Shown here: positions 1 to 9,387 of the stretch, in pieces
Layout: each line of letters opens with the position of its first letter
Numbering within the stretch: the first letter of the stretch is position 1
From: Methanospirillum hungatei
GTDB taxonomy: Archaea; Halobacteriota; Methanomicrobia; Methanomicrobiales; Methanospirillaceae
Assembly (NCBI RefSeq): GCF_020216685.1
Contig: NZ_JAIWNS010000063.1
Location: 1-10,000 of the forward strand
Direction: 5' to 3'
DNA: 10,000 nt
Notes under the pieces: model-generated
Told to the model about the DNA's origin: nothing
The model's input: the letters and a program-made list of their open reading frames with translations, nothing else
Database searches by the model: none
Program-made: the position numbers and the translations under genes

Positions 1-1454
1 AACGACGCGGTGGACAGGGCAAACCGGTCAATAGAGCCATCACATATCCTGACATAACAGAGATTTCGTCCTCGGGGGGATTCAACGGCTGCAAGGGCAT
101 CTCCATCACAGACCTCAAACTCTGCCTGAACCGGCCCTTTTGGTATCTGCCTGACGAGTTCGGTAATGTACGCAAGGGATGCCAGGACCTCATCACCCTT
201 CAGGGCAAACCGTCCCAGGACATCACCGGTCATCCGGGTGAGCGGAGGAATGGGATGAGTTTCGTACAGGCCATAGGGATGATCTGACCTGACATCAAGT
301 GCCCGGCCGCTCGCCCGTGCCACCGGCCCGGATAGTGCCAGAGGATCGATGAGTGGCTCCCGCACCACCCCGGTTGTGGAGAACCGGTCAATAACAGACG
401 GGACAGAGAGGACCCAGGACAGGATGCCCTCAAGATCAACCCTGACCTTCATGAGCGTATCCGTCACCTCAACCAGCAGATCATCGGATATGTCATGGCT
501 GATACCGCCGATACCGATAATCCCTTTCAGGAACCGTGAACCGGTCAGGCGTTCACAAACCCGCTGCACCGTCTCGCGGAGAATGAGAAGCCGGCTTGCT
601 GCCGTGGAAAACGCAACATCGGTGACCATACCGGCCAGATCTGAGAGCAGTGACCAGGATCGTTCAAGCTCGAGGAAATACGCCCGGAGCCAGACTGCAC
701 GGGGCGGGACCTGTATTGATAAGATCTGTTCAACTGCCATCGCATAGCAGCAGGCATTGGCAACCGACTCATCTCCGCTCACTGACTCTGCAATGCTCAC
801 ACCCTGTTCAGGACTGCACCCCTCAGCACGTTTCTCAATACCCCGGTGCAGGTATCCAAGACGAATCTCAAGGTTTAAAATGTCCTCCCCAATCACCGAG
901 AACCGGAAATGCCCTGGCTCGATGATCCCTGCATGGACCGGTCCGACCGGAACCTGATACACCCCTGTCCCTTCCATGGTCCTGAATTCATAGGGAGCCG
1001 TATGGTCCGACGCCGTGATGGGGGTGATGGGGGCATTCTTGATACTCTTTTTTAATGGATAAAACCCGTCAGGATATGCTTCATGTAGGAAGAGTCTGCG
1101 GGTATCAGGAGAGCCGGCAAACTGAAGACCAAATCCATCAGTGATCGCCCGTTCAAACCTGCTCGCAGCAGGATAGATCTCCACAAGTGACTCAGGCATT
1201 CGGGTATTGAGGACCAGGACAAGATATTTCCTCATCTCTGTGAGCTCAAAGACATACCTTAGCACAAAGGAACCATCTTTCGCTTCTCTTTCGCAGAATA
1301 TCCAGACCAAACGGGACTCAAGAGCCAGAAGTGTCTCTGCAACCGCTCTGATACGCTCATCAGGCACTGCATAGGAGATGGTTGTCATATCTTCCCCTAT
1401 CAGCCATTCGGCCGGGAGGGAGAGGGCTGAATAATGTGCATGTACACCGGTCAT
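1..1454 (-). CDS. HyfG/HycE-type large subunit (NuoC-NuoD fusion) of an Ehr-like complex, lacking the first Ni ligands; 3' end cut by window
   Basis: 484 residues are visible in one open frame and the gene runs off at base 1. ATG at 1454 overlaps the preceding stop (ATGA), with GGGGTG at 1460-1465 as ribosome binding site. Residues about 20-140 are NuoC-like, ending in the family signature (DGFGL...F.G.PDTRRL.LHEAYPDGFYPLKK). From about 165 it is NuoD/[NiFe] large-subunit-like: GPVHAGIIEPGHF (171-183), RLGYLHRGIEK (198-208), and ESPRG (458-462), equivalent to EAPRG in HycE. Where HycE has E-R-V-C-G-I-C-G, this protein reads E-S-V-S-G-D-E-S (223-230), so both L1 cysteines are replaced (S226, E229) and the following His position is N233. 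The C-terminal L2 motif (DPCxxC in hydrogenases) would begin roughly 25-30 residues past the window edge. A normal NiFe centre is therefore unlikely. By family knowledge this matches Ehr complexes, thought to couple an unknown redox reaction to ion pumping on the cytoplasmic face. Confidence 0.87.
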   Translation of the reverse strand, partial: MTGVHAHYSALSLPAEWLIGEDMTTISYAVPDERIRAVAETLLALESRLVWIFCEREAKDGSFVLRYVFELTEMRKYLVLVLNTRMPESLVEIYPAASRFERAITDGFGLQFAGSPDTRRLFLHEAYPDGFYPLKKSIKNAPITPITASDHTAPYEFRTMEGTGVYQVPVGPVHAGIIEPGHFRFSVIGEDILNLEIRLGYLHRGIEKRAEGCSPEQGVSIAESVSGDESVANACCYAMAVEQILSIQVPPRAVWLRAYFLELERSWSLLSDLAGMVTDVAFSTAASRLLILRETVQRVCERLTGSRFLKGIIGIGGISHDISDDLLVEVTDTLMKVRVDLEGILSWVLSVPSVIDRFSTTGVVREPLIDPLALSGPVARASGRALDVRSDHPYGLYETHPIPPLTRMTGDVLGRFALKGDEVLASLAYITELVRQIPKGPVQAEFEVCDGDALAAVESPRGRNLCYVRICDGSIDRFALSTAS

Positions 1455-2920
1455 AGCTGCACCCCAAATCCCAGATCAGCAACCGCCGCAGCAAGGAAGG
1501 CTTCCTCCCCAGGTATCATCACGGTCCCAATCATGATTGAAAGGAGGAGAAGCAGAACAATGGGAACTTTCATGGAGAGAGGCGCCGTATAGGGCACCGG
1601 ACCTTCCCCGGCCGGGAACCTGACCGCCATCACCGGCAGGTAAAACCGGAGCAGGGCAACTCCTGCACAGGCAAACAAGAGAAGGACTATTGCCGGAATC
1701 CATACTGAGATCGCTGCAGCTGCCAGAAGTATCCCCACCTTTGAGAGAAAGAGCGGGAAGAGAGGCATTCCGATAAGAGCTGCACACCCTGCCATCACGG
1801 TTACCGCCGCAAAGGGCTGAAGCAGCAGGAGGTCTCCGATCTCGTCCTCACCGGTCCGTGTCGGAACCTTATACTGGCGGTGGAGGATACCGGCGGAGAA
1901 GAACAGACCTGCTTTGATGCAGGAATGCGAGAGCATATGAAAGAGTGCCCAGAATAGTGCCACCGGGCTTCCGATACCAATGCCAAGCAAGATGAACCCC
2001 ATATTCTCAATGGATGAGAAGGCGATAAGCGTCTTAAGCTTCTTCTGCCTGAGCATCGAGAGACAGGCGACCGAGATAGTAATCATGGCAAAGACGATCA
2101 GGAGAACTGATACCTGCCCGAACACCCCTGTCTCCTTCATGATCCCGGTCATCCGGAGGATTCCATACATCCCGATATTGAGTATTGCACCGGACAGAAC
2201 CGCACTTACCGCTGAAGGAGCCTTGGCATGAGCCAGAGGAAGCCAGGTATGAAATGGCACAATGCCTGATTTTGCTGCAAACCCGATAAAGAAGAAGACA
2301 AAGGCGATAAAGACCATGCCGCTGTCCAGACCGGCTGCTTCATCCACAATCTCTGTCCACAGAAGACTTCCGACACCGGTCTTATTCCTGACCGCCTCAA
2401 AGAGGAAGATGATCCCGATGAATGAGAAGAGCATCGAGGTTGAACAGATGAAGATGTACTTCAGCGATGCATCAATCGTTGCCCTGAGTGCAAGGATTGC
2501 AATGAGCACTGCAGAGAGAACGGTCGTCAGTTCTGCACAGATCCAGAACAGGGCAATATTGGGGGTGAAGATTGCCATGGTTGTAGCGGCAAGCAGGAAT
2601 GAGAATCCGAAATAAAATATCCGAAGACTTCTCTTCTCCAGATCCCCTGACCTGACCAGCCCGTCAATATATCCAACAGCATACAGAGCTGCTGCAGCAA
2701 AGATGATGCTGGTTGTGAGCATCACAAAAAGACTCATGTGATCGATGAGGAAGAACGGGGAATCGTCCCAGATCCCAGGAGATACGATAAAATACAGCGT
2801 TATTATGAGGGAAATAACCGGATGGATAACGCCAAGAAGGCTGAGTGACCGGTGTGTCCGGAGCAGCAGCTGCAAAAGAAGAATCACCATTGCAACCACC
2901 GGGTAGAGGACTGCTATCAT
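1451..2920 (-). CDS. HyfF/NuoN-type antiporter-like proton/ion-translocating membrane subunit
   Basis: This is a 489-residue polytopic membrane protein of the Mrp-antiporter/complex I family (NuoL/M/N, HyfB/D/F). It is one of two such subunits in this operon and is expected to form an ion-translocation channel. Visible landmarks are the glutamate in helix 5 (FWICAEL, E130), the family core around K217 (AAKSGIVPFHTWLP, then AHAKAPSAVSA.LSG), the helix 8-9 segment FSSIENMG (301-308), FHMLSHSCIKAGLFF with H332 and K336, and a late lysine in LFLSKVGIL (K394). Length fits NuoN/HyfF (about 485-525). ATG at 2920 overlaps the HyfE-like stop as ATGA and is preceded by a strong GGAGGGAT site. Its own stop overlaps the large-subunit start. 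HyfF is preferred over HyfD because of its position after the HyfE-like gene, but the paralogues are hard to separate. Confidence 0.9.
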   Translation of the reverse strand: MIAVLYPVVAMVILLLQLLLRTHRSLSLLGVIHPVISLIITLYFIVSPGIWDDSPFFLIDHMSLFVMLTTSIIFAAAALYAVGYIDGLVRSGDLEKRSLRIFYFGFSFLLAATTMAIFTPNIALFWICAELTTVLSAVLIAILALRATIDASLKYIFICSTSMLFSFIGIIFLFEAVRNKTGVGSLLWTEIVDEAAGLDSGMVFIAFVFFFIGFAAKSGIVPFHTWLPLAHAKAPSAVSAVLSGAILNIGMYGILRMTGIMKETGVFGQVSVLLIVFAMITISVACLSMLRQKKLKTLIAFSSIENMGFILLGIGIGSPVALFWALFHMLSHSCIKAGLFFSAGILHRQYKVPTRTGEDEIGDLLLLQPFAAVTVMAGCAALIGMPLFPLFLSKVGILLAAAAISVWIPAIVLLLFACAGVALLRFYLPVMAVRFPAGEGPVPYTAPLSMKVPIVLLLLLSIMIGTVMIPGEEAFLAAAVADLGFGVQL

Positions 2921-3609
2921 GCTATCCCTCCCTCTTCAGACAGCAGATGAAACTCCTCCAACCGGCTTTTATACTCCTCAATGGATGAGTCTATGCCGAC
3001 GGTCATGATGGATGTCAGGAGCACCAGGATGATGAGATCGATGACGATGACAAACTCGATGAAGAACGGCAGTTCAGTGACGAATAAACCAAAGGCAAGA
3101 ACCCCGTTCTCCATCGAGAGATAGCCGATGACCTTGGATATCGCCATCCTCCGAATGCACACCGCTAAAAGTCCCATCAGGACGAGGGATACCCCGATGA
3201 CCGAGCCTAAGAAGAACAGGCTGCTTGCTGCATAGAGTTTCTCAAGTATCTGTGCAAACGTGATATAGACCAGCAGAATGATGAGGATGCTGAGCATAAG
3301 GGCACCAGGAGGCCGGAGATAGGAGAATTTCAGATCCTGCTGAATATGTATCCGCTCCTGAATGAGCCTGATACATGCCGGAATCCCCCATACCTTGGAT
3401 ACCACTGTGAGGGCAGCGACCAGGAGGAGGATGGTATGTTCTTCAAGTACGACAAGGCCAAGAGCAATCAGAACCAGCAGGAAAGACTGGAACTGATATG
3501 TCCTGACCAGATTTTTAAGACTTCTTGATGAGAGGAGAAATCCCCCTGACACCAGAACCAGTATCAGGCATATCCTGATCCATACCGGTGCCACGTCGTT
3601 GAGTATCAC
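2917..3609 (-). CDS. HyfE-type membrane subunit (NuoK-like C-terminal part)
   Basis: The 230-residue hydrophobic protein has about seven predicted membrane helices, close to the usual length of HyfE (about 216). The C-terminal half carries the NuoK-like pattern: a positively charged turn (CIRRMAISK, 151-159), then IGYLSMENGVLAFGLF with E167, then an acidic helix containing E185 and D191. These buried carboxylates are typical of the ion-conducting part of complex I-like membrane arms. The start is GTG at 3609, chosen because it overlaps the HyfC stop (GTGA) and is preceded at 3613-3620 by GAGGTGAT, an essentially perfect match to the archaeal 16S tail. The last 25 residues are acidic and polar, probably cytoplasmic. 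It would link the HyfC-like heel to the two antiporter-like subunits. No key residue appears to be missing. Confidence 0.88.
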   Translation of the reverse strand: MILNDVAPVWIRICLILVLVSGGFLLSSRSLKNLVRTYQFQSFLLVLIALGLVVLEEHTILLLVAALTVVSKVWGIPACIRLIQERIHIQQDLKFSYLRPPGALMLSILIILLVYITFAQILEKLYAASSLFFLGSVIGVSLVLMGLLAVCIRRMAISKVIGYLSMENGVLAFGLFVTELPFFIEFVIVIDLIILVLLTSIMTVGIDSSIEEYKSRLEEFHLLSEEGGIA

Positions 3610-4547
3610 AGCATCACCTCGATGAATATCGTAAGAATTGAAAAGAAAAATGCAATCATGAAGAGATTTGGGATCTGGAAGAACCGCATCTTTGCATAGG
3701 CAGATTCAAAAAGCCCGATGATGACGCAGAGTACCGTCCCTTTCAGGAGGAACAACACTCCCCCAAGTATCAGGGCTCCGACTGACAACTCAAGAGCAAT
3801 CCCTGCCGGGACTATGATATTGAGGAGAATTGCCATAAGAAGGGTCTGTTTCACCGCATGGGAGAGTTCAAAGAGGGCAAGATTTCGGCCTGATGTGTCA
3901 AGCAGCATCCCCTCATGAACCATGGTAAGCTCTAGATGAGTCTCCGGGTTGTCCACCGGAACCCGCCCTGTTTCCACAATGATCAGGATAAAGAGCGGTA
4001 CTGAGAGGAGAAGAACCGTCGGGTTGTATGCAGGGAAGATCGTTGTCGCCGTTCTGAATATGTCGTGAATTGAAAAACTGCCCGTCACATATACCAACGC
4101 TGCAAACACGACCACAGTCACCGGTTCGATGATGGCAGACAGGCTCATCTCCCGTGAACTGCCCATTCCACCAAAGGTGCTTGCCGCATCAAGACCAAGC
4201 AGGGCTATGAGCAGCCGGCCGGCGACGAGAAGATAGAGGAATACGATGATATTGGCGGTGACCAGCTCCTGCTCAGGTATCCAGAAGAGCGGGACCATTA
4301 TGGCTGCAACCAGAAGTATTGACAGAGCAGCATACGGAGCAATCCGGGAGATACACCCTGCATACTCTGAATACAGCGTCTCTTTTCTGAAGAGCTTTGC
4401 AAGATTATAGTATCCTTGCAGAAGATGCGGGCCTTGTCTGCCCTGCACCCGTGCCTTTACCTTCTTTATGACCATCATGAAGAATGGCGATATCACAAGG
4501 ACAAACGCAACATTCAGAAGGGCGAAGATGAATGATTCTCCAATCAT
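3606..4547 (-). CDS. HyfC/HycD/NuoH-type membrane subunit
   Basis: A 313-residue membrane protein of the NuoH/HyfC family, the heel subunit that joins the peripheral redox module to the membrane ion pump. It shows the conserved cytoplasmic loop KKVKARVQGRQGPHLLQG (28-45) with the following YYNLAKLFRKE, and the loop ETGRVPVDNPETHLELTM (192-209), rich in the charged residues of the quinone-site/E-channel region in complex I. Length fits HyfC/HycD (307-322). I place the start at ATG 4547, which overlaps the previous stop as ATGA and has GGGTGG upstream. The open frame extends to 4688, but that extension is Cys/Arg/Pro-rich, non-membrane and lies inside the upstream gene, so it is not part of the protein. 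In E. coli hydrogenase-4 a HyfD gene sits between HyfC and HyfE; it is absent here. Confidence 0.92.
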   Translation of the reverse strand: MIGESFIFALLNVAFVLVISPFFMMVIKKVKARVQGRQGPHLLQGYYNLAKLFRKETLYSEYAGCISRIAPYAALSILLVAAIMVPLFWIPEQELVTANIIVFLYLLVAGRLLIALLGLDAASTFGGMGSSREMSLSAIIEPVTVVVFAALVYVTGSFSIHDIFRTATTIFPAYNPTVLLLSVPLFILIIVETGRVPVDNPETHLELTMVHEGMLLDTSGRNLALFELSHAVKQTLLMAILLNIIVPAGIALELSVGALILGGVLFLLKGTVLCVIIGLFESAYAKMRFFQIPNLFMIAFFFSILTIFIEVML

Positions 4548-6475
4548 GCCGACCACCCGAGGATGAGAATCAGCAGAATCACGGTGCAGAAGACATAGAG
4601 GACAAACCGGTCGATATCCCCGTTCTGAAGGGCTGCGACAAGGGATGCATACCGGTCTATCCTTCGTGCAGCCGGCAGGTAGAGGCATTCCTCAAAAAAT
4701 TTCATGAGATGGATACTTCCGGTTCCTGTTCTGAACAGACACTGGTGCTCATCAAGGTATTCCCGTGTTACGCATATCCGGGTCCGGTACACCGGGGCAA
4801 AAAACCTGACCACAGGCTCGGTAAACCCTGAACCGGTATACTCCATCTTGCTTGAGGGAGCTCTCATCCCACAGTCCCATGTCCGGGTTATCCGGGTTTT
4901 TCGTGAAGCATACGACCAGACCGCCACATACACCAGGACACTCGTCCCGAGGAGGAGGAGAAAGAGTACCAAAAGATCAGGGAGCAGTCCTGGATACCCA
5001 AGGAACGAGAAGATCTGACCTGAGAAGATACCAAGACCTGCACTCATCAGAGCCAGAACAGCCGGTCCTGCATACATCGGCCAGGGGACCTCCCGTGCAT
5101 GATATGCCCCCTCCGACCGGGGGAGTGCGAGAAAGGTCAGCCCGACTGCTTTCACAAAGGTTGTGACGGTCAGTGCCCCGGTCAGGCTGAAGAGGGAGAG
5201 CACAACCACCATGACGATCTGCAAAAGCGGGGAGAGTTCTGACAGACCACCGATAAGGGACATAATTATCAGAAACTCACCAATAAATCCGCTAAAGGGA
5301 GGGATTGATACGATGGACAGGACACCGATGAAGAAAAGTCCGCCGGTCCAGGGCATCCTGACAAGGATTCCACCCATCTCATCAATATTCCTGGTCCCTG
5401 CAGCCTGGCAGACCGACCCTGCGGTCAGGAATAACAGCCCCTTGAACAACCCATGACTGATGGCATGAAAGACTGCCCCTGCGATCGCCATCAAAGCAAG
5501 GGCCGGGGATCCGAATACTGTGAAGAGAACCCAAAGACCAGTCCCTATCAGAATAATCCCCGTATTATCAATGGATGAGTAGGCGAGCAGGCCCTTTATA
5601 TCCTGTTCCTTTAAGGCATACATCACCCCAAGCACCGCCGAAAGGCACCCGAATGCCAGGATAAGAAATCCCCATGCAGCGTTTGGAGCATAGAATCCGG
5701 TTACCACCCGGAGCAGGGCATACAGAGCCGTGCTTATCATCATCCCGGACATCAGGGCCGAAACCGGCGATGGTGCGGCAGGATGCGCATGGGGAAGCCA
5801 TTTATGAAACGGAATGACCCCTGATTTGATAGCAATACCAAAAAACAGGCAGAGGAACGAGAGGGATATGAGAGGATCGGATCCGGACAGATGAGAGGGA
5901 TACTCCCAAGACCCGGTACTCACACACATCAATAGTATCCCCAGGAAAACAAATACCGTTGAGATCTGAGTCATTGCCAGGTAAAAGAGGGAGGCATACC
6001 GTGTTTTCTCCTCCTCAAACTCCGTCAGGACCAGGAAGAAGGAGAGGATAGCCATGAGTTCCCAGAATACCAGGAATGCAATGGTTGTTCCTGCCAGGAT
6101 GACGAGCAGCATACTCAGCAAAAACAAGGGGATGAACCCTGACACCACATATCTTCGCCGGTTTCCATGCATCCGGTCAAGATATCCGGGTGTGTAGAGT
6201 GCAACCGCAAGACTCAGCATCCCAAGCAGGATACAAAACAGCGCAGACAGGCGATCAATACCGATGCATATCGGAAATGTTACCCATTCGCCCTGAAAGA
6301 GAATGGTCTTTGCAGATGACACCAGAAGACAGGGGAGTGAGAAGAGCGTGAGCAGAATACCGCCACCGCCCATGATTATCGAAGAAACTGACCATATTCG
6401 TTTTTTTCGGATGCACAGAGGGATGACCCCTGAAAGAGCATAGAGGAGTACGATGAAAAGAAATATTTCAGACAT
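4544..6475 (-). CDS. HyfB/NuoL-type antiporter-like proton/ion-translocating membrane subunit
   Basis: First gene of the operon, 643 residues, a large multi-helix protein of the Mrp-antiporter/NuoL family. Diagnostic residues are E139 in helix 5 (FWELM), K217 in the core motif (AIKSGVIPFHKWLPHAHPAAPSPVSALMSG), H340 and K345 (ISHGLFKGLLF), and E400 in the late amphipathic helix (PPFSGFIGEFL). The C-terminal cytoplasmic stretch has TWDCGMRAP...YTGSGFTEPVVRFF (532-559), which resembles the HyfB/HycC ending rather than NuoL, supporting assignment to a hydrogenase-4-like complex. ATG 6475 is the natural start, since the hydrophobic N-terminus begins immediately. The ribosome binding site is weak (GTGG about 5 bases upstream). 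Its stop overlaps the HyfC-like start by four bases. It probably pumps ions at the far end of the membrane arm; whether H+ or Na+ cannot be told from the sequence. Confidence 0.92.
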   Translation of the reverse strand: MSEIFLFIVLLYALSGVIPLCIRKKRIWSVSSIIMGGGGILLTLFSLPCLLVSSAKTILFQGEWVTFPICIGIDRLSALFCILLGMLSLAVALYTPGYLDRMHGNRRRYVVSGFIPLFLLSMLLVILAGTTIAFLVFWELMAILSFFLVLTEFEEEKTRYASLFYLAMTQISTVFVFLGILLMCVSTGSWEYPSHLSGSDPLISLSFLCLFFGIAIKSGVIPFHKWLPHAHPAAPSPVSALMSGMMISTALYALLRVVTGFYAPNAAWGFLILAFGCLSAVLGVMYALKEQDIKGLLAYSSIDNTGIILIGTGLWVLFTVFGSPALALMAIAGAVFHAISHGLFKGLLFLTAGSVCQAAGTRNIDEMGGILVRMPWTGGLFFIGVLSIVSIPPFSGFIGEFLIIMSLIGGLSELSPLLQIVMVVVLSLFSLTGALTVTTFVKAVGLTFLALPRSEGAYHAREVPWPMYAGPAVLALMSAGLGIFSGQIFSFLGYPGLLPDLLVLFLLLLGTSVLVYVAVWSYASRKTRITRTWDCGMRAPSSKMEYTGSGFTEPVVRFFAPVYRTRICVTREYLDEHQCLFRTGTGSIHLMKFFEECLYLPAARRIDRYASLVAALQNGDIDRFVLYVFCTVILLILILGWSA

Positions 6476-6656: not shown

Positions 6657-7064
6657 ATGAAAAAATTAATCATCTCCGGTCCACGCACATGCCGGAAATT
6701 TACCACGGTTTCTAATGAAATCGCGAAATATATCAAAGAAATCAATGGTGTTGACGAGATTATCACCGGCGGTTCTACTGGTGTCGACCTCATCGCAAAG
6801 GAGTTTGCGGAACAGAATAAAATCGCATACAAAGAGTTTGCACCGAATTGGCAGGACGATTTGAATGCCGCAGGCCTGGTCAGAGACGCGCGGATGGCAG
6901 AGTACGGGACTCATCTCCTGGTCCTCTCCAACGGAGCCTCAAAAGAATCCAGAAACCTGATTGCAGAAGCAAAAAAGAATAACCTCACCATCAAGACCAT
7001 TGGATACGTAGAAGAGATGCTCATCGAGATGAAACAGCCGGTCATGAATCCGACTGCCATCTAA
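6657..7064 (+). CDS. Small Rossmann-like SLOG-superfamily protein (DUF2493/YspA-like)
   Basis: A 135-residue soluble protein with the layout of the DUF2493 branch of the SLOG superfamily (predicted nucleotide-derivative binders related to DprA and LOG). The first strand is followed by SGPR (7-10), then a helix, then the glycine-rich TGGSTGVD (37-44) followed by a helix (LIAKEFAEQ). Next comes a loop with F61-A-P-N-W65, then AGLVRDARMAEYGTHLLVL (72-90), matching the family's R(N)xxM....D.LI(A/V) pattern. In the family the G-rich loop and the R/N-rich segment form the ligand pocket. The N-terminus is short and starts directly with the first strand, so ATG 6657 is right even though no Shine-Dalgarno site precedes it. 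It is a single gene between its own promoter and an oligo-T terminator, divergent from the Ehr-like operon. The ligand and role are unknown; other SLOG proteins bind nucleotides, nucleobases or cytokinin-like molecules. No partner gene is adjacent. Confidence 0.8.
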   Translation: MKKLIISGPRTCRKFTTVSNEIAKYIKEINGVDEIITGGSTGVDLIAKEFAEQNKIAYKEFAPNWQDDLNAAGLVRDARMAEYGTHLLVLSNGASKESRNLIAEAKKNNLTIKTIGYVEEMLIEMKQPVMNPTAI

Positions 7065-7141: not shown

Positions 7142-7756
7142 CTATTCTCCCTTCAAAGGTCTGCCAGGATCGACAACCTCAAGCTGTGCGGTTGACATCC
7201 GGTAATAGAGTCCGACCACCCTGAGCTTTCCTGCATCTTCGGCGTCCTTGACCACGCTGTAGGTGCGGAGATGTGCAAGCTGGAGTTTCACATTCTCAAT
7301 CTCAAGTTCTGACTGCCATTTCCTGGCCTCTTCAGGATCAGAGGGTTTTTCTCCCTTCTTTTCAACGGCATCCAGGGCCGTATGGGCATGTCTAAGCCAT
7401 CCGGGGATCAGAACATCATCACCACTCTTCTTTTCGGCCAGTGCTTTCATGGCACCACACTCTTCATGACCGCACACAACCAGCGTGTTTATCTTCAGAT
7501 GGCGAATCCCGTACTCCAGAAATGTCCCGACATTCCAGTCTCCGGGGGGGACGATATTCCCAATGTTCCGGTGGACAAAGATCTCTCCTGGCTTTGCATG
7601 ACAGGTGATCTCTGGTGCGACTCTTGAGTCACAGCACCCGATCATCATGACATGCGGGTTCTGCCCCTTGAGAAGGGCTTTGTAATACTCAATATTCTCT
7701 GCGTATTCATTCTCTACGAAGGTCTGATTCCCTTCCATTAACTTTTCAATTCCCAT
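7142..7756 (-). CDS. Beta-class carbonic anhydrase (carbonate dehydratase)
   Basis: Catalyses CO2 + H2O to bicarbonate + H+. In a methanogen it would balance CO2 for methane formation with bicarbonate for carboxylations. The 204-residue protein has the full beta-class active site: C42-D43-S44-R45 (first zinc ligand and the Asp/Arg dyad), and H97 and C100 in CGHEECGA (second and third ligands). Supporting blocks are GEIFVHRNIGNIVPP (57-71) and a C-terminal GLYYRMSTAQLEVV (182-195) typical of the fold. Length matches bacterial/plant-type enzymes (about 200-220) rather than the short archaeal Cab type (about 170). I choose ATG 7756 because GGGAGAT lies about six bases upstream and a TATA-like box lies further up. 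The open frame extends to a TTG at 7813, but that adds 19 unconserved residues and would overlap the presumed promoter. Single gene, not in an operon. Confidence 0.95.
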   Translation of the reverse strand: MGIEKLMEGNQTFVENEYAENIEYYKALLKGQNPHVMMIGCCDSRVAPEITCHAKPGEIFVHRNIGNIVPPGDWNVGTFLEYGIRHLKINTLVVCGHEECGAMKALAEKKSGDDVLIPGWLRHAHTALDAVEKKGEKPSDPEEARKWQSELEIENVKLQLAHLRTYSVVKDAEDAGKLRVVGLYYRMSTAQLEVVDPGRPLKGE

Positions 7757-7810
7757 GTTATCTCCCAGGGTCCTTATCACATAAGGATTACAGATCGTGA
7801 ACTGAAGAGC

Positions 7811-7820
7811 CAATATACAT
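7811..7820 (-). promoter_or_regulatory. Likely TATA box for the carbonic anhydrase gene
   Basis: On the minus strand this reads ATGTATATTG in an AT-rich patch. About 25 bases downstream would put the start of transcription near 7790 and give a leader of roughly 35 bases containing the Shine-Dalgarno site. This supports the ATG at 7756 over the longer frame. Confidence 0.5.
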
Positions 7821-7888: not shown

Positions 7889-8701
7889 ATGGAGGAAGCA
7901 ACCCTGCAGGCAGTGAAACGGGCAATGCCCGGTCACGGAAGAGCCCGCATTCATGAAAAACTCCTTTCATTCCTCGGTGTCGAGGATCAGTCAGAGGTGG
8001 AAGTGAGCACAGATGCAGGGGCAACCCTTACTCTGACCATCTTTGCAGATGCCATGGTAGACGAGGGAACGATACGAATCAGCGGAGAGGATCTGAAAAA
8101 GCTCAATATTCCGGATGGCGGGAAGGTCCATGTAACCAGGAAGATTCCGCTTGAGGAGAGAATTCGGACTGCCGCTGAATCCGCTGCCGACCAGATACGG
8201 GGAGGAGCACAGGAGATCGGATCAAAACTCTCTGAAACTGCAGACAAATTACAGAAGGGAGCAGCAGATACCGCAGGACAGATCAGCACAAAAGCAAAGG
8301 AAATAACTGAAAAGGTGAAAGAGGACACAAAACCCATCGGAGAAAAAGTCAGCAAAGCAGCAAAGAGTTCGGCAGATGCCATCAGGGACAAGATACCCAT
8401 CGGAAAACTCAGCCCGGAGATTGAGAAGGGATTATCTGCCATAAGTCAGGAGGAGGCAAAGGCGATCAGAAGTGCCCTGACCGGCATAGAGGGCGTCAGC
8501 GCGGCAGTCCCGGTACGGTTTGCAGCAGGCCGATCCCTTGGCAACCTCACAATACCGCCGGAAATTACACTCGTAACCGTCCAGCGGAAAGATAAGGTCC
8601 TGGGACTTGACAGAGACATCATCCTGAAAGAGAATGATATTGTATATTTCTCCGGACCTTCTGACGCCGTCGGATTTGTTACCAGAATGCTGGAGGGATA
8701 A
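7889..8701 (+). CDS. Unrecognised fusion: double-psi-barrel-like domain, 11-residue-repeat helix, TrkA_C-like domain
   Basis: A 270-residue soluble protein with three parts. Residues about 14-86 look like a small beta-barrel of the double-psi/AbrB sort (VEVST.AG.TLTLTIFADAMVDEGTIRISGEDLKKLNIPDGGKVHVTRK). The ISGEDLKKLNIPDGGKV segment resembles barrels in VAT/Cdc48 N-domains and formylmethanofuran dehydrogenase D; this is a pattern match only. Residues 89-165 are an alanine- and lysine-rich helix in exact 11-residue units. Residues about 203-268 follow the TrkA_C/RCK_C pattern: a strand (AVPVRF), GRSLGNL, a P-E-I-T-LVTV.R strand pair, D.ILKENDIVYFSGP and a final helix. In potassium channels and transporters TrkA_C regulates by dimerising or binding a ligand, but there is no transporter or TrkA_N domain here. 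ATG 7889 lacks a clear Shine-Dalgarno site; ATG 7925 is a possible but weaker start. First of five co-oriented, closely packed genes. Confidence 0.8.
   Translation: MEEATLQAVKRAMPGHGRARIHEKLLSFLGVEDQSEVEVSTDAGATLTLTIFADAMVDEGTIRISGEDLKKLNIPDGGKVHVTRKIPLEERIRTAAESAADQIRGGAQEIGSKLSETADKLQKGAADTAGQISTKAKEITEKVKEDTKPIGEKVSKAAKSSADAIRDKIPIGKLSPEIEKGLSAISQEEAKAIRSALTGIEGVSAAVPVRFAAGRSLGNLTIPPEITLVTVQRKDKVLGLDRDIILKENDIVYFSGPSDAVGFVTRMLEG
8153..8383 (+). repeat. Seven 11-residue (hendecad) helical repeats inside the fusion protein
   Basis: Residues 89-165 divide without gaps into seven 11-residue units. The last position is A99, I110, L121, I132, V143, V154, I165. The fourth is I92, I103, L114, A125, A136, T147, A158. 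The eighth is nearly always small (A96, A107, A118, A129, T140, G151, A162). Lys, Glu and Asp occupy the outer face. Such spacing is typical of LEA group 3, apolipoprotein and synuclein-like helices, and of right-handed coiled coils. The repeat is at protein level; the DNA units have diverged. Confidence 0.75.
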
Positions 8702-8703
8702 GC

Positions 8704-9081
8704 TTGGAGATCTCCTTTTCCCAGGATGGTCTTATAGGAATTGCAGTCCTTCTTGTCATCGTTATCATGATATACCTGATCATCAGGGAGATCAGACTGA
8801 TGCGGACCAATACCAGGAAACTGGAGCTGGAACTGGAACGCGATAAGCTCCAGATATTAAAACAGGATACCGCAGCTTCAGTCCAGCCGGCCTTACGACT
8901 GACAACAGATCAGATATCAGCACTCAAAGAGATTGAAGAATCGAACATCGCCCTTGAAACCGAGATCTTCATGAAACAGAAGACTATCGAGGGCAGACTC
9001 AAGCGTCTTGAAAATTATGTCAAGCGTGAAAAACTTGACCTGATGCTGGACCGGATTGATTCAGAGGAAAAAAAGATTTAG
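8704..9081 (+). CDS. Small one-helix membrane protein with cytoplasmic coiled coil, unknown function
   Basis: 125 residues. A short N-terminus is followed by one strongly hydrophobic helix (about 8-29). Then comes a basic patch (R28, R31, R34, R38, K39), which by the positive-inside rule puts the rest in the cytoplasm. Residues 30-58 and 68-123 are charged, helix-forming and coiled-coil-like, separated by a short break around QPALRLTT. The start is TTG at 8704, unusual but well supported: GGAGGG (8692-8697) sits six bases upstream, and the frame opens two bases after the previous stop. I see no enzyme motif and do not recognise the family. The close spacing and shared helical character with the neighbours suggest it anchors a soluble partner, perhaps the preceding hendecad protein, to the membrane. 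The tail LDLMLDRID (111-119) faintly recalls the Y-L-D-R motif of the next three genes, but the tyrosine is missing. Confidence 0.75.
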   Translation: MEISFSQDGLIGIAVLLVIVIMIYLIIREIRLMRTNTRKLELELERDKLQILKQDTAASVQPALRLTTDQISALKEIEESNIALETEIFMKQKTIEGRLKRLENYVKREKLDLMLDRIDSEEKKI

Positions 9082-9090
9082 GTGAGAGGA

Positions 9091-9387
9091 ATGTTTGAAA
9101 CATCTGGGAGCACACGAAAATTCTTTGATAACCTGAGCAGTTTTGAAACACTCGCCGCATCTCAGGTCCCTACCTTTGACCGGACACTGGACTCCTACTT
9201 TGATCGGAATTTTGAAGCCATTGTCGAAGAATGGGGTCTTATCACCGAGGCAGACCTGCATGAATATGCACGGCGGCTTGAATTTCTCAGCTATGAAGTC
9301 GGACGACTCTATGCCATGAAAGAATTATTCAAAAGCCGGGCAGACTCCATTGAAAAGGCCATAGAGGAGCTGGAGGCGAAGAAATGA
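9091..9387 (+). CDS. Small soluble YxDR-motif protein, member 1 of 3
   Basis: A 98-residue soluble, mostly helical protein of unknown function. Residues 29-63 align without gaps to the two following proteins around Y36-F-D38-R39, then hydrophobic residues, an acidic pair (E46-E47) and an aromatic (W48). After the motif comes a long charged helix to the C-terminus, probably a coiled coil. Of the three it has the longest N-terminal lead (about 28 residues) before the motif. I choose ATG 9091 because AGGTGA (9080-9085) lies five bases upstream. A GTG at 9082, directly after the previous stop, would add only three residues and would overlap that binding site. The stop at 9385-9387 overlaps the next start. 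No catalytic motif is visible. Confidence 0.72.
   Translation: MFETSGSTRKFFDNLSSFETLAASQVPTFDRTLDSYFDRNFEAIVEEWGLITEADLHEYARRLEFLSYEVGRLYAMKELFKSRADSIEKAIEELEAKK

Follow-up and report, generated by a model that had tools for sequence, protein, structure and literature searches.

It has long been asked how redox reactions in the head of complex I push ions through its antiporter-like subunits. A conserved relative whose cluster and active-site ligands have given way to other residues, fixed charges among them, would show what that head does when electrons lack their known route. The window analysed here, the whole stretch of 10,000 nucleotides at the end of a Methanospirillum hungatei contig, raises this question through an operon that encodes the Methanospirillum Ehr complex and corresponds to Mhun_1817-1822 of strain JF1. 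This operon was described in 2009 as resembling membrane-bound hydrogenases, with large subunits that appear to be without the NiFe cysteines, and Methanosarcina acetivorans and M. mazei were stated to have homologous operons (PMC2686161); in 2016 it appears under the name ehrABCDLS, listed among the membrane enzymes that likely reduce Fd (PMC4704411). Passages on Ehr elsewhere likewise describe complexes without NiFe ligands for which a function was at most proposed (PMC10284858, PMC6349859, PMC4378227), and another states that Geobacter Ehr was made more on formate than under hydrogen-containing conditions (PMC7894505).

The operon lies on the minus strand, with hyfB-, hyfC-, hyfE- and hyfF-like genes and the gene of a large subunit, L, which leaves the contig at base 1:

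3..1454, minus strand: Ehr large subunit L (NuoC-NuoD/HycE-like), first 484 of 519 residues, with PF00346 and PF00329 and the start codon at 1454
768..788, minus strand: former L1 nickel motif, E223-S-V-S226-G-D-E229, from translation and HycE alignment
1451..2920, minus strand: HyfF-like antiporter subunit, from domain match and residue alignment
2917..3609, minus strand: HyfE-like membrane subunit (NF008556, below the curated cut-off; no Pfam match; found by tblastn in 26/26 loci)
3606..4556, minus strand: HyfC/NuoH-like membrane subunit, from domain match, its start codon set by comparison with locus L031
4544..6475, minus strand: HyfB-like antiporter subunit, from domain match and residue alignment
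6657-7064, plus strand: gene of a YspA-like SLOG protein (PF10686), between ehr and the carbonic anhydrase gene
7142..7813, minus strand: beta-carbonic anhydrase (PF00484), a possible functional neighbour outside the complex

A second contig of the same genome (C204), which shares 67 bases with the window end, supplies the remainder of L and the complete small subunit S, giving full lengths of 519 and 174 residues, respectively, and the six-gene hyf-like set of Ehr (B, C, E, F, L, S) in one operon. Pfam searches of the operon products found only PF00361, PF00146, PF00346, PF00329 and PF01058, and nothing in HyfE; the ehr operon holds no ferredoxin gene, and an Rfam scan of the window gave no match. 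Beyond S lie an opposite-strand helicase-like gene, a small gene and then fdhB- and fdhA-like genes, with a formate-transporter-like gene one gene past the fdhA-like gene (fdh and transporter genes named from sequence). In each of the six Methanospirillum loci inspected, the YspA-like SLOG gene was close to ehr. The nearest relative was genome G024, with L 99% identical over the matched part, and the L of M. stamsii (L007) was 83% identical. Compared with L031, synonymous divergence of the window ehr genes goes from 0.29 (hyfB) through 0.19 and 0.12 down to 0.02 (hyfF and L), a gradient which suggests recombination inside the operon between close strains.

Residues 223-229 of L read ESVSGDE, coded by 788-768 on the minus strand, and a HMMER alignment to E. 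coli HycE (7z0s_E) set V-S-G-D-E opposite V-C-G-I-C, so that the two L1 cysteines of HycE face Ser226 and Glu229, and a HycE His faces Asn233. Translation and alignment therefore agree with the preliminary description of this DNA, which had read the stretch as a hydrogenase-like large subunit deprived of its first nickel-binding cysteine pair. The second motif, which lies past base 1, could be read after joining C204: in PDB comparisons that used the full-length L031 protein, DPCYSCTD of HycE faces NLSYAGTD in L, where Ser513 and Gly516 replace the cysteines, three residues follow Gly516 and no intact DPCxxC is present. With S226/E229 at L1 and SYAG at L2, all four nickel ligands are therefore lost. 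C235 and C236, once considered as alternative nickel-site cysteines, were rejected, as no column there holds Cys in at least half of the 23 cluster-less rows.

Comparisons across genomes cover 26 loci, 23 of them cluster-less and three cluster-bearing with regard to S (see below), after L007 was dropped as a duplicate of L032 and L030 was merged into the joined locus. G227 and D228 are found in 26/26 Ehr loci and E229 in 23/23 cluster-less loci, while S226 is retained in 21 of these 23, the two f16 genomes (L080 and L081) having Cys in one case and Gly in the other with a cluster-less S in both. Nickel ligands were incomplete in 32/32 Ehr large-subunit rows; in the window's own genome, three hydrogenase-type large subunits (L001-L003) have CGIC and DPCxxC intact. 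In a tree of large subunits built without the motif columns (L065 omitted; L008 and L042 trimmed to their last 530 residues), the 32 Ehr rows stood apart from 12 hydrogenase rows with 100/100 support, these 12 being assigned by motif, not assay, and nine of them being truncated sequences. L itself fell outside the hydrogenase rows and has neither the L1 nor the L2 CxxC ligands of a group 4 [NiFe] hydrogenase (S226/E229, S513/G516), and a functional hydrogenase was rejected on these grounds. The earlier interpretation as an Ehr large subunit without nickel ligands, placed outside the hydrogenases, stands. It is not new, since the missing ligands were published for Mhun_1817-1822 in 2009, and it missed a further loss, in S, because S lies off the contig.

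According to passages of PMC9474812, HycG ligates the proximal cluster G1, the equivalent of N2 in complex I. Aligned to HycG, S has D56-N-A-A59 for C-N-G-C, G-D-D123 for G-A-C and G-N153-P-P for G-C-P-P. Every one of the four ligands of the single [4Fe-4S] cluster of S is gone: Asp56, Asp123 and Asn153 stand at three of their positions and a variable residue at the fourth, 59, and Asp122 and Lys149 adjoin these sites. S thus has none of the four small-subunit Cys of group 4 [NiFe] hydrogenases (D56, A59, D123 and N153 stand in their place) and departs from the usual, not known to be defining, Ehr trait of a small-subunit [4Fe-4S] cluster. Across the 23 cluster-less loci, positions 56, 122 and 123 are always D, 59 is A, T or P and 153 is N (22) or D (1), and the site residues are constant while their codons vary synonymously (GAT/GAC, AAT/AAC). 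Among 219 S homologues (best 120 of each of two protein searches, merged, with P0001 omitted), a set of nearest relatives only and therefore biased towards likeness, D56 was found in 218 (E in one), D122 in 218 (N in one), D123 in 214 (E in five), N153 in 208 (D in ten, T in one) and K149 in 207, and 193 carry the exact D56-D122-D123-K149-N153 signature. Cys occurs at position 56 in 0/219 and at any of the four ligand positions in 2/219, both at 59. Ranked by conservation among 171 S columns, D56 is 31st, D122 36th, N153 63rd and K149 67th; K149 and N153 being less fixed than D56 and D122, the site is distinctive by its chemistry, not by top conservation. The cluster-bearing loci L009, L082 and L083 keep CNGC, GxC and GCPP with an L that is without nickel ligands, and the same combination is retained in five of six bacterial plasmid loci.

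Judged from sequence, it is almost certain that L has no nickel ligands and S no cluster ligands. The loss in L is the part already known, and that in S goes unmentioned in the passages of the literature searched, outside which lies Marreiros 2013, which may bear on it. With S lacking iron-sulfur ligands, asking for an electron donor or acceptor may be the wrong question. The same losses bear on the reading given in the JF1 genome paper, a hydrogenase-type complex that reduces or oxidises ferredoxin. Gene order and subunits do resemble those of Ech and Hyf, and a passage of PMC4704411 counts the operon among enzymes that 'likely reduce Fd'; an L without Ni ligands, an S without cluster ligands and an operon without a ferredoxin gene contradict such a role, which we consider highly improbable. 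The annotation as a ferredoxin-reducing hydrogenase, as it stands in that passage (PMC4704411), needs revision.

In the trees we built, the cluster-less proteins, most of them archaeal and some labelled as bacterial, form a single clade within Ehr. With motif columns removed, the 23 cluster-less rows of the L tree formed one clade (100/99), as did the 33 cluster-less rows of an S tree (100/99) that included 10 cluster-less and five cluster-bearing database proteins, with Cys confirmed in the latter. An S tree with motif columns, including 46/219 cluster-less and 12/120 presumed cluster-bearing database proteins, gave the same cluster-less clade beside a single cluster-bearing Ehr clade (97/78). 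Cluster-bearing rows were not one clade in the L and S trees built without motif columns, and the trees are midpoint-rooted, with weakly supported deep order and some long branches. As the cluster is present in hydrogenases as well as in cluster-bearing Ehr, the simplest order puts its loss after that of the nickel ligands.

Within family f1, 15/61 genomes carry L at 50% identity or more, and the best 30 matches in a 294-genome phylum sample comprised 17 cluster-less proteins (eight from f1, one from f2, six from f8 and two from f16) and 13 others. Archaeal names among the listed S homologues include Methanomicrobiales, Altiarchaeales, Woesearchaeota, Thermoplasmatota and Bathyarchaeota, and bacterial names among them include a Dehalococcoidales MAG and Candidatus Moduliflexus, MAG labels being sometimes wrong. 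Six bacterial loci were fetched of 242 plasmid records with a match, two of them unannotated (L085 and L088); gene order is B, C, E, F, L, S in three of the four annotated loci, and the Rhodococcus plasmid has S first. On an Allomeiothermus silvanus plasmid (L087), S (8254-9126) has TGLD, GNE and GSPA at the cluster sites; from motif and tree place, this is perhaps an independent second cluster loss, and one clade with the other cluster-less S was not rejected (AU p 0.286). The L087 protein keeps an N-terminal ferredoxin-like Cys motif despite its lost cluster ligands.

A decaying operon or an assembly artefact would fit the loss of all known catalytic ligands and a window that stops at a contig edge. 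It is contradicted by open frames, by the same residues in 23 loci and 219 database clusters and by a dN/dS of about 0.1, so that we find it barely credible; a decaying pseudogene was rejected on the same evidence. Over five pairs, dN/dS was 0.11-0.13 for L, 0.09-0.22 for S and 0.04-0.23 for the membrane subunits, ratios that are rough because several comparisons have synonymous change close to 1 or higher, the pair of window and L031 being too close for L and S. The values for L uphold the initial view of a maintained gene, and in some of these pairs the rates of L and S lie a little above those of most membrane subunits. The predicted model of S has a pLDDT of 92 and that of L of 80, with a weak stretch at 147-204. 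HycE was the best PDB match of the L model (TM 0.87/0.85), while complex I NuoB-type chains and HycG were the top structural matches of S.

Residues of the membrane arm, placed by alignment to MbhH, MbsH, HycC and HycD, are largely constant. E139, K217, K294, H337, H341, K345 and E400 of HyfB, E130, K217, K296, H332 and K336 of HyfF, and E144, E195, D202, E215 and E284 of HyfC are kept in 26/26 loci. Less constant are H328 (16/26) and position 394 (K in 22, E in four) of HyfF, and E136 (19/26) and E205 (17/26) of HyfC. Neither the invariant Cys columns nor the Pfam domains of the complex reveal another site for a redox cofactor. Only three Cys columns (HyfB C535, L C486 and S C125) are invariant across the 23 loci, in rows that start at the tblastn match and leave some N-termini outside coverage, and Pfam found no flavin, heme or ferredoxin domain in the scanned operon products.

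With electrons barred from the known route into L, a redox-free ion transporter is favoured. We tentatively propose that cluster-less Ehr may be an ion transporter of the complex I type that operates with no transfer of electrons. Its six subunits (HyfB, HyfC, HyfE, HyfF, L and S) would act as a secondary ion transporter, by cation/H+ exchange or by ligand-gated H+/Na+ conduction, and the L/S arm would be kept as a structural head that senses ligands and couples its conformation to the membrane arm. The old cluster site would now carry fixed charges (Asp, Asp, Asp, Lys, Asn) and either stand in for the cluster or bind a redox-inactive cation, and a role in balancing pH and CO2/bicarbonate would be consistent with the carbonic anhydrase and formate genes nearby in some lineages. 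The ligand losses, the kept ion-path residues, the lack of a ferredoxin gene in the operon and the constraint on all subunits support this proposal, as do the S and L models, the single clade of cluster-less proteins and the MNHE contrast described below, although this contrast takes no account of kinship and is owed to Mbh no less than to Mrp. Against it stand the conserved L pocket loop, where a substrate reaction may persist, a new non-cysteine metal site in S that could remain redox-active, the faster L and S in some pairs and the absence of PF00484 from 9/26 genomes (six f8 genomes with the complex among them). It is also conceivable, and we put it forward with reserve, that a widespread branch of the complex I superfamily dropped electron transfer, with the N2-equivalent site rebuilt as Asp-Asp-Asp-Lys-Asn, possibly a static mimic of the cluster charge or a cation site, and ion transport served by the same head-to-membrane coupling. 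If redox-free, the complex would be a natural control for head-to-pump coupling in complex I. M. acetivorans is genetically tractable.

An alternative explanation is that the complex is still an oxidoreductase. Either two substrates would react directly inside the pocket of L, or the Asp/Asp/Asn site of S would bind a mononuclear metal in place of the cluster, and ion pumping would be driven by the reaction. Conservation of the pocket loop of L (VGPVHAGIIEPGHFRF, SGD) equals that in cluster-bearing Ehr, with 83 L positions invariant across all 26 loci of both kinds, and the pocket residues shared by cluster-less and cluster-bearing Ehr speak for this alternative, as do the carboxylate site, which varies mostly conservatively in the 219 homologues as metal ligands would, and the thiol-redox genes beside ehr in some genomes. 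However, the scanned operon products hold no flavin, heme or ferredoxin domain, no chain of redox centres leads from outside to the pocket, and the L positions aligned to what we take to be the quinone-site His and Tyr (identities and numbering presumed) are Ile and Gly. We therefore judge a remaining oxidoreductase unlikely.

The neighbourhood of ehr brings in a further explanation, a machine that ties the ion gradient to CO2 hydration or bicarbonate movement, for which DAB and the cyanobacterial NDH-1 CO2-uptake systems are models. PF00484 is present in 17/26 Ehr genomes in one or two copies each, and in 10 of these 17 a copy lies no more than about 6 kb from ehr, which speaks for such a machine; the ten fall into three groups, namely six Methanospirillum, three of the nine other family members with Ehr, and G069, where the nearby carbonic anhydrase accompanies an Ehr that is cluster-bearing. 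L083 also speaks for it, as ehr there is followed by genes of a formate transporter, FdhA, FdhB and a carbonic anhydrase (Fdh and transporter named from sequence). On the other hand, the carbonic anhydrase is PF00484 and not DabA-like, its gene is distant or on a different contig in the other seven of the 17 genomes, and it is absent from 9/26 (six f8, both f16 and G240). A CO2/bicarbonate-coupled machine is thus quite doubtful. The carbonic anhydrase gene near ehr in G060 (G060:C1:1493340-1493776) is broken by a TAG stop, or by a sequence error. Some Methanoregula-like genomes also have the gene near ehr, and the enzymes of Methanospirillum and of Methanoregula-like genomes seem to be of different subtypes.

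Formate dehydrogenase genes were found near ehr in 5/26 loci (the window, L031, L032, L033 and L083). Ferredoxin-thioredoxin-reductase-like genes lie near ehr in five Methanoregula-like loci (L036, L037, L039, L040 and L042) and glutaredoxin-like genes in four; the former hint at a redox context, which counts mildly against a redox-free transporter. Overall, the carbonic anhydrase, formate and thiol-redox neighbours are suggestive, and their links to ehr are not universal. MNHE, an Mrp/Mbh marker, is missing in 11/15 f1 genomes with the complex and in 19/46 without it (Fisher p 0.04, kinship ignored), a contrast that seems to be mainly an Mbh signal because several MNHE genes adjoin hydrogenase-type large subunits (e.g. 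in G024).

Compared to known systems, the complex shares with Ehr the gene set B-C-E-F-L-S, the loss of L1 and L2 cysteines and the antiporter-like subunits; passages of the Ehr literature treat missing Ni only, whereas in Methanospirillum S is without cluster ligands as well. Antiporter-like subunits are also common to Mrp cation/H+ antiporters, and their Glu, Lys and His align with those of MbhH, MbsH and HycC; in contrast to Mrp, L, S and HyfC are retained, and Pfam found no MnhB/C/E/F/G-type domains, and hence no MrpA-G set, among the ehr operon products. DAB pairs a DabA-type protein with a NuoL-like subunit, and no DabA-type protein was found among the eight window ORFs scanned, the neighbouring carbonic anhydrase being PF00484. 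MBS/Mbx of Pyrococcus is a hydrogenase relative without a [NiFe] centre, and MBS has Fe-S clusters, whereas cluster-less Ehr has no cluster ligands. Catalysis by MBS (6u8y) is by an Fe-S cluster, according to PMC7684303. E. coli formate hydrogenlyase (7z0s) has the same subunit types and gives the best structural match of L and one of the best of S; it differs in that its HycE has [NiFe] and its HycG cluster G1, fed by HycB and HycF (passages of PMC9474812), and cluster-less Ehr is without any ligand set of its [NiFe], G1, HycB or HycF. Complex I and F420H2 dehydrogenase (Fpo) differ from cluster-less Ehr by their N2 ligands, by what we presume to be their quinone-site His and Tyr and by an electron-input module, which has no counterpart in the ehr operon, but share with it the fold, NuoC-NuoD and NuoB homology and an arm of NuoH- and NuoL/M/N-like subunits.
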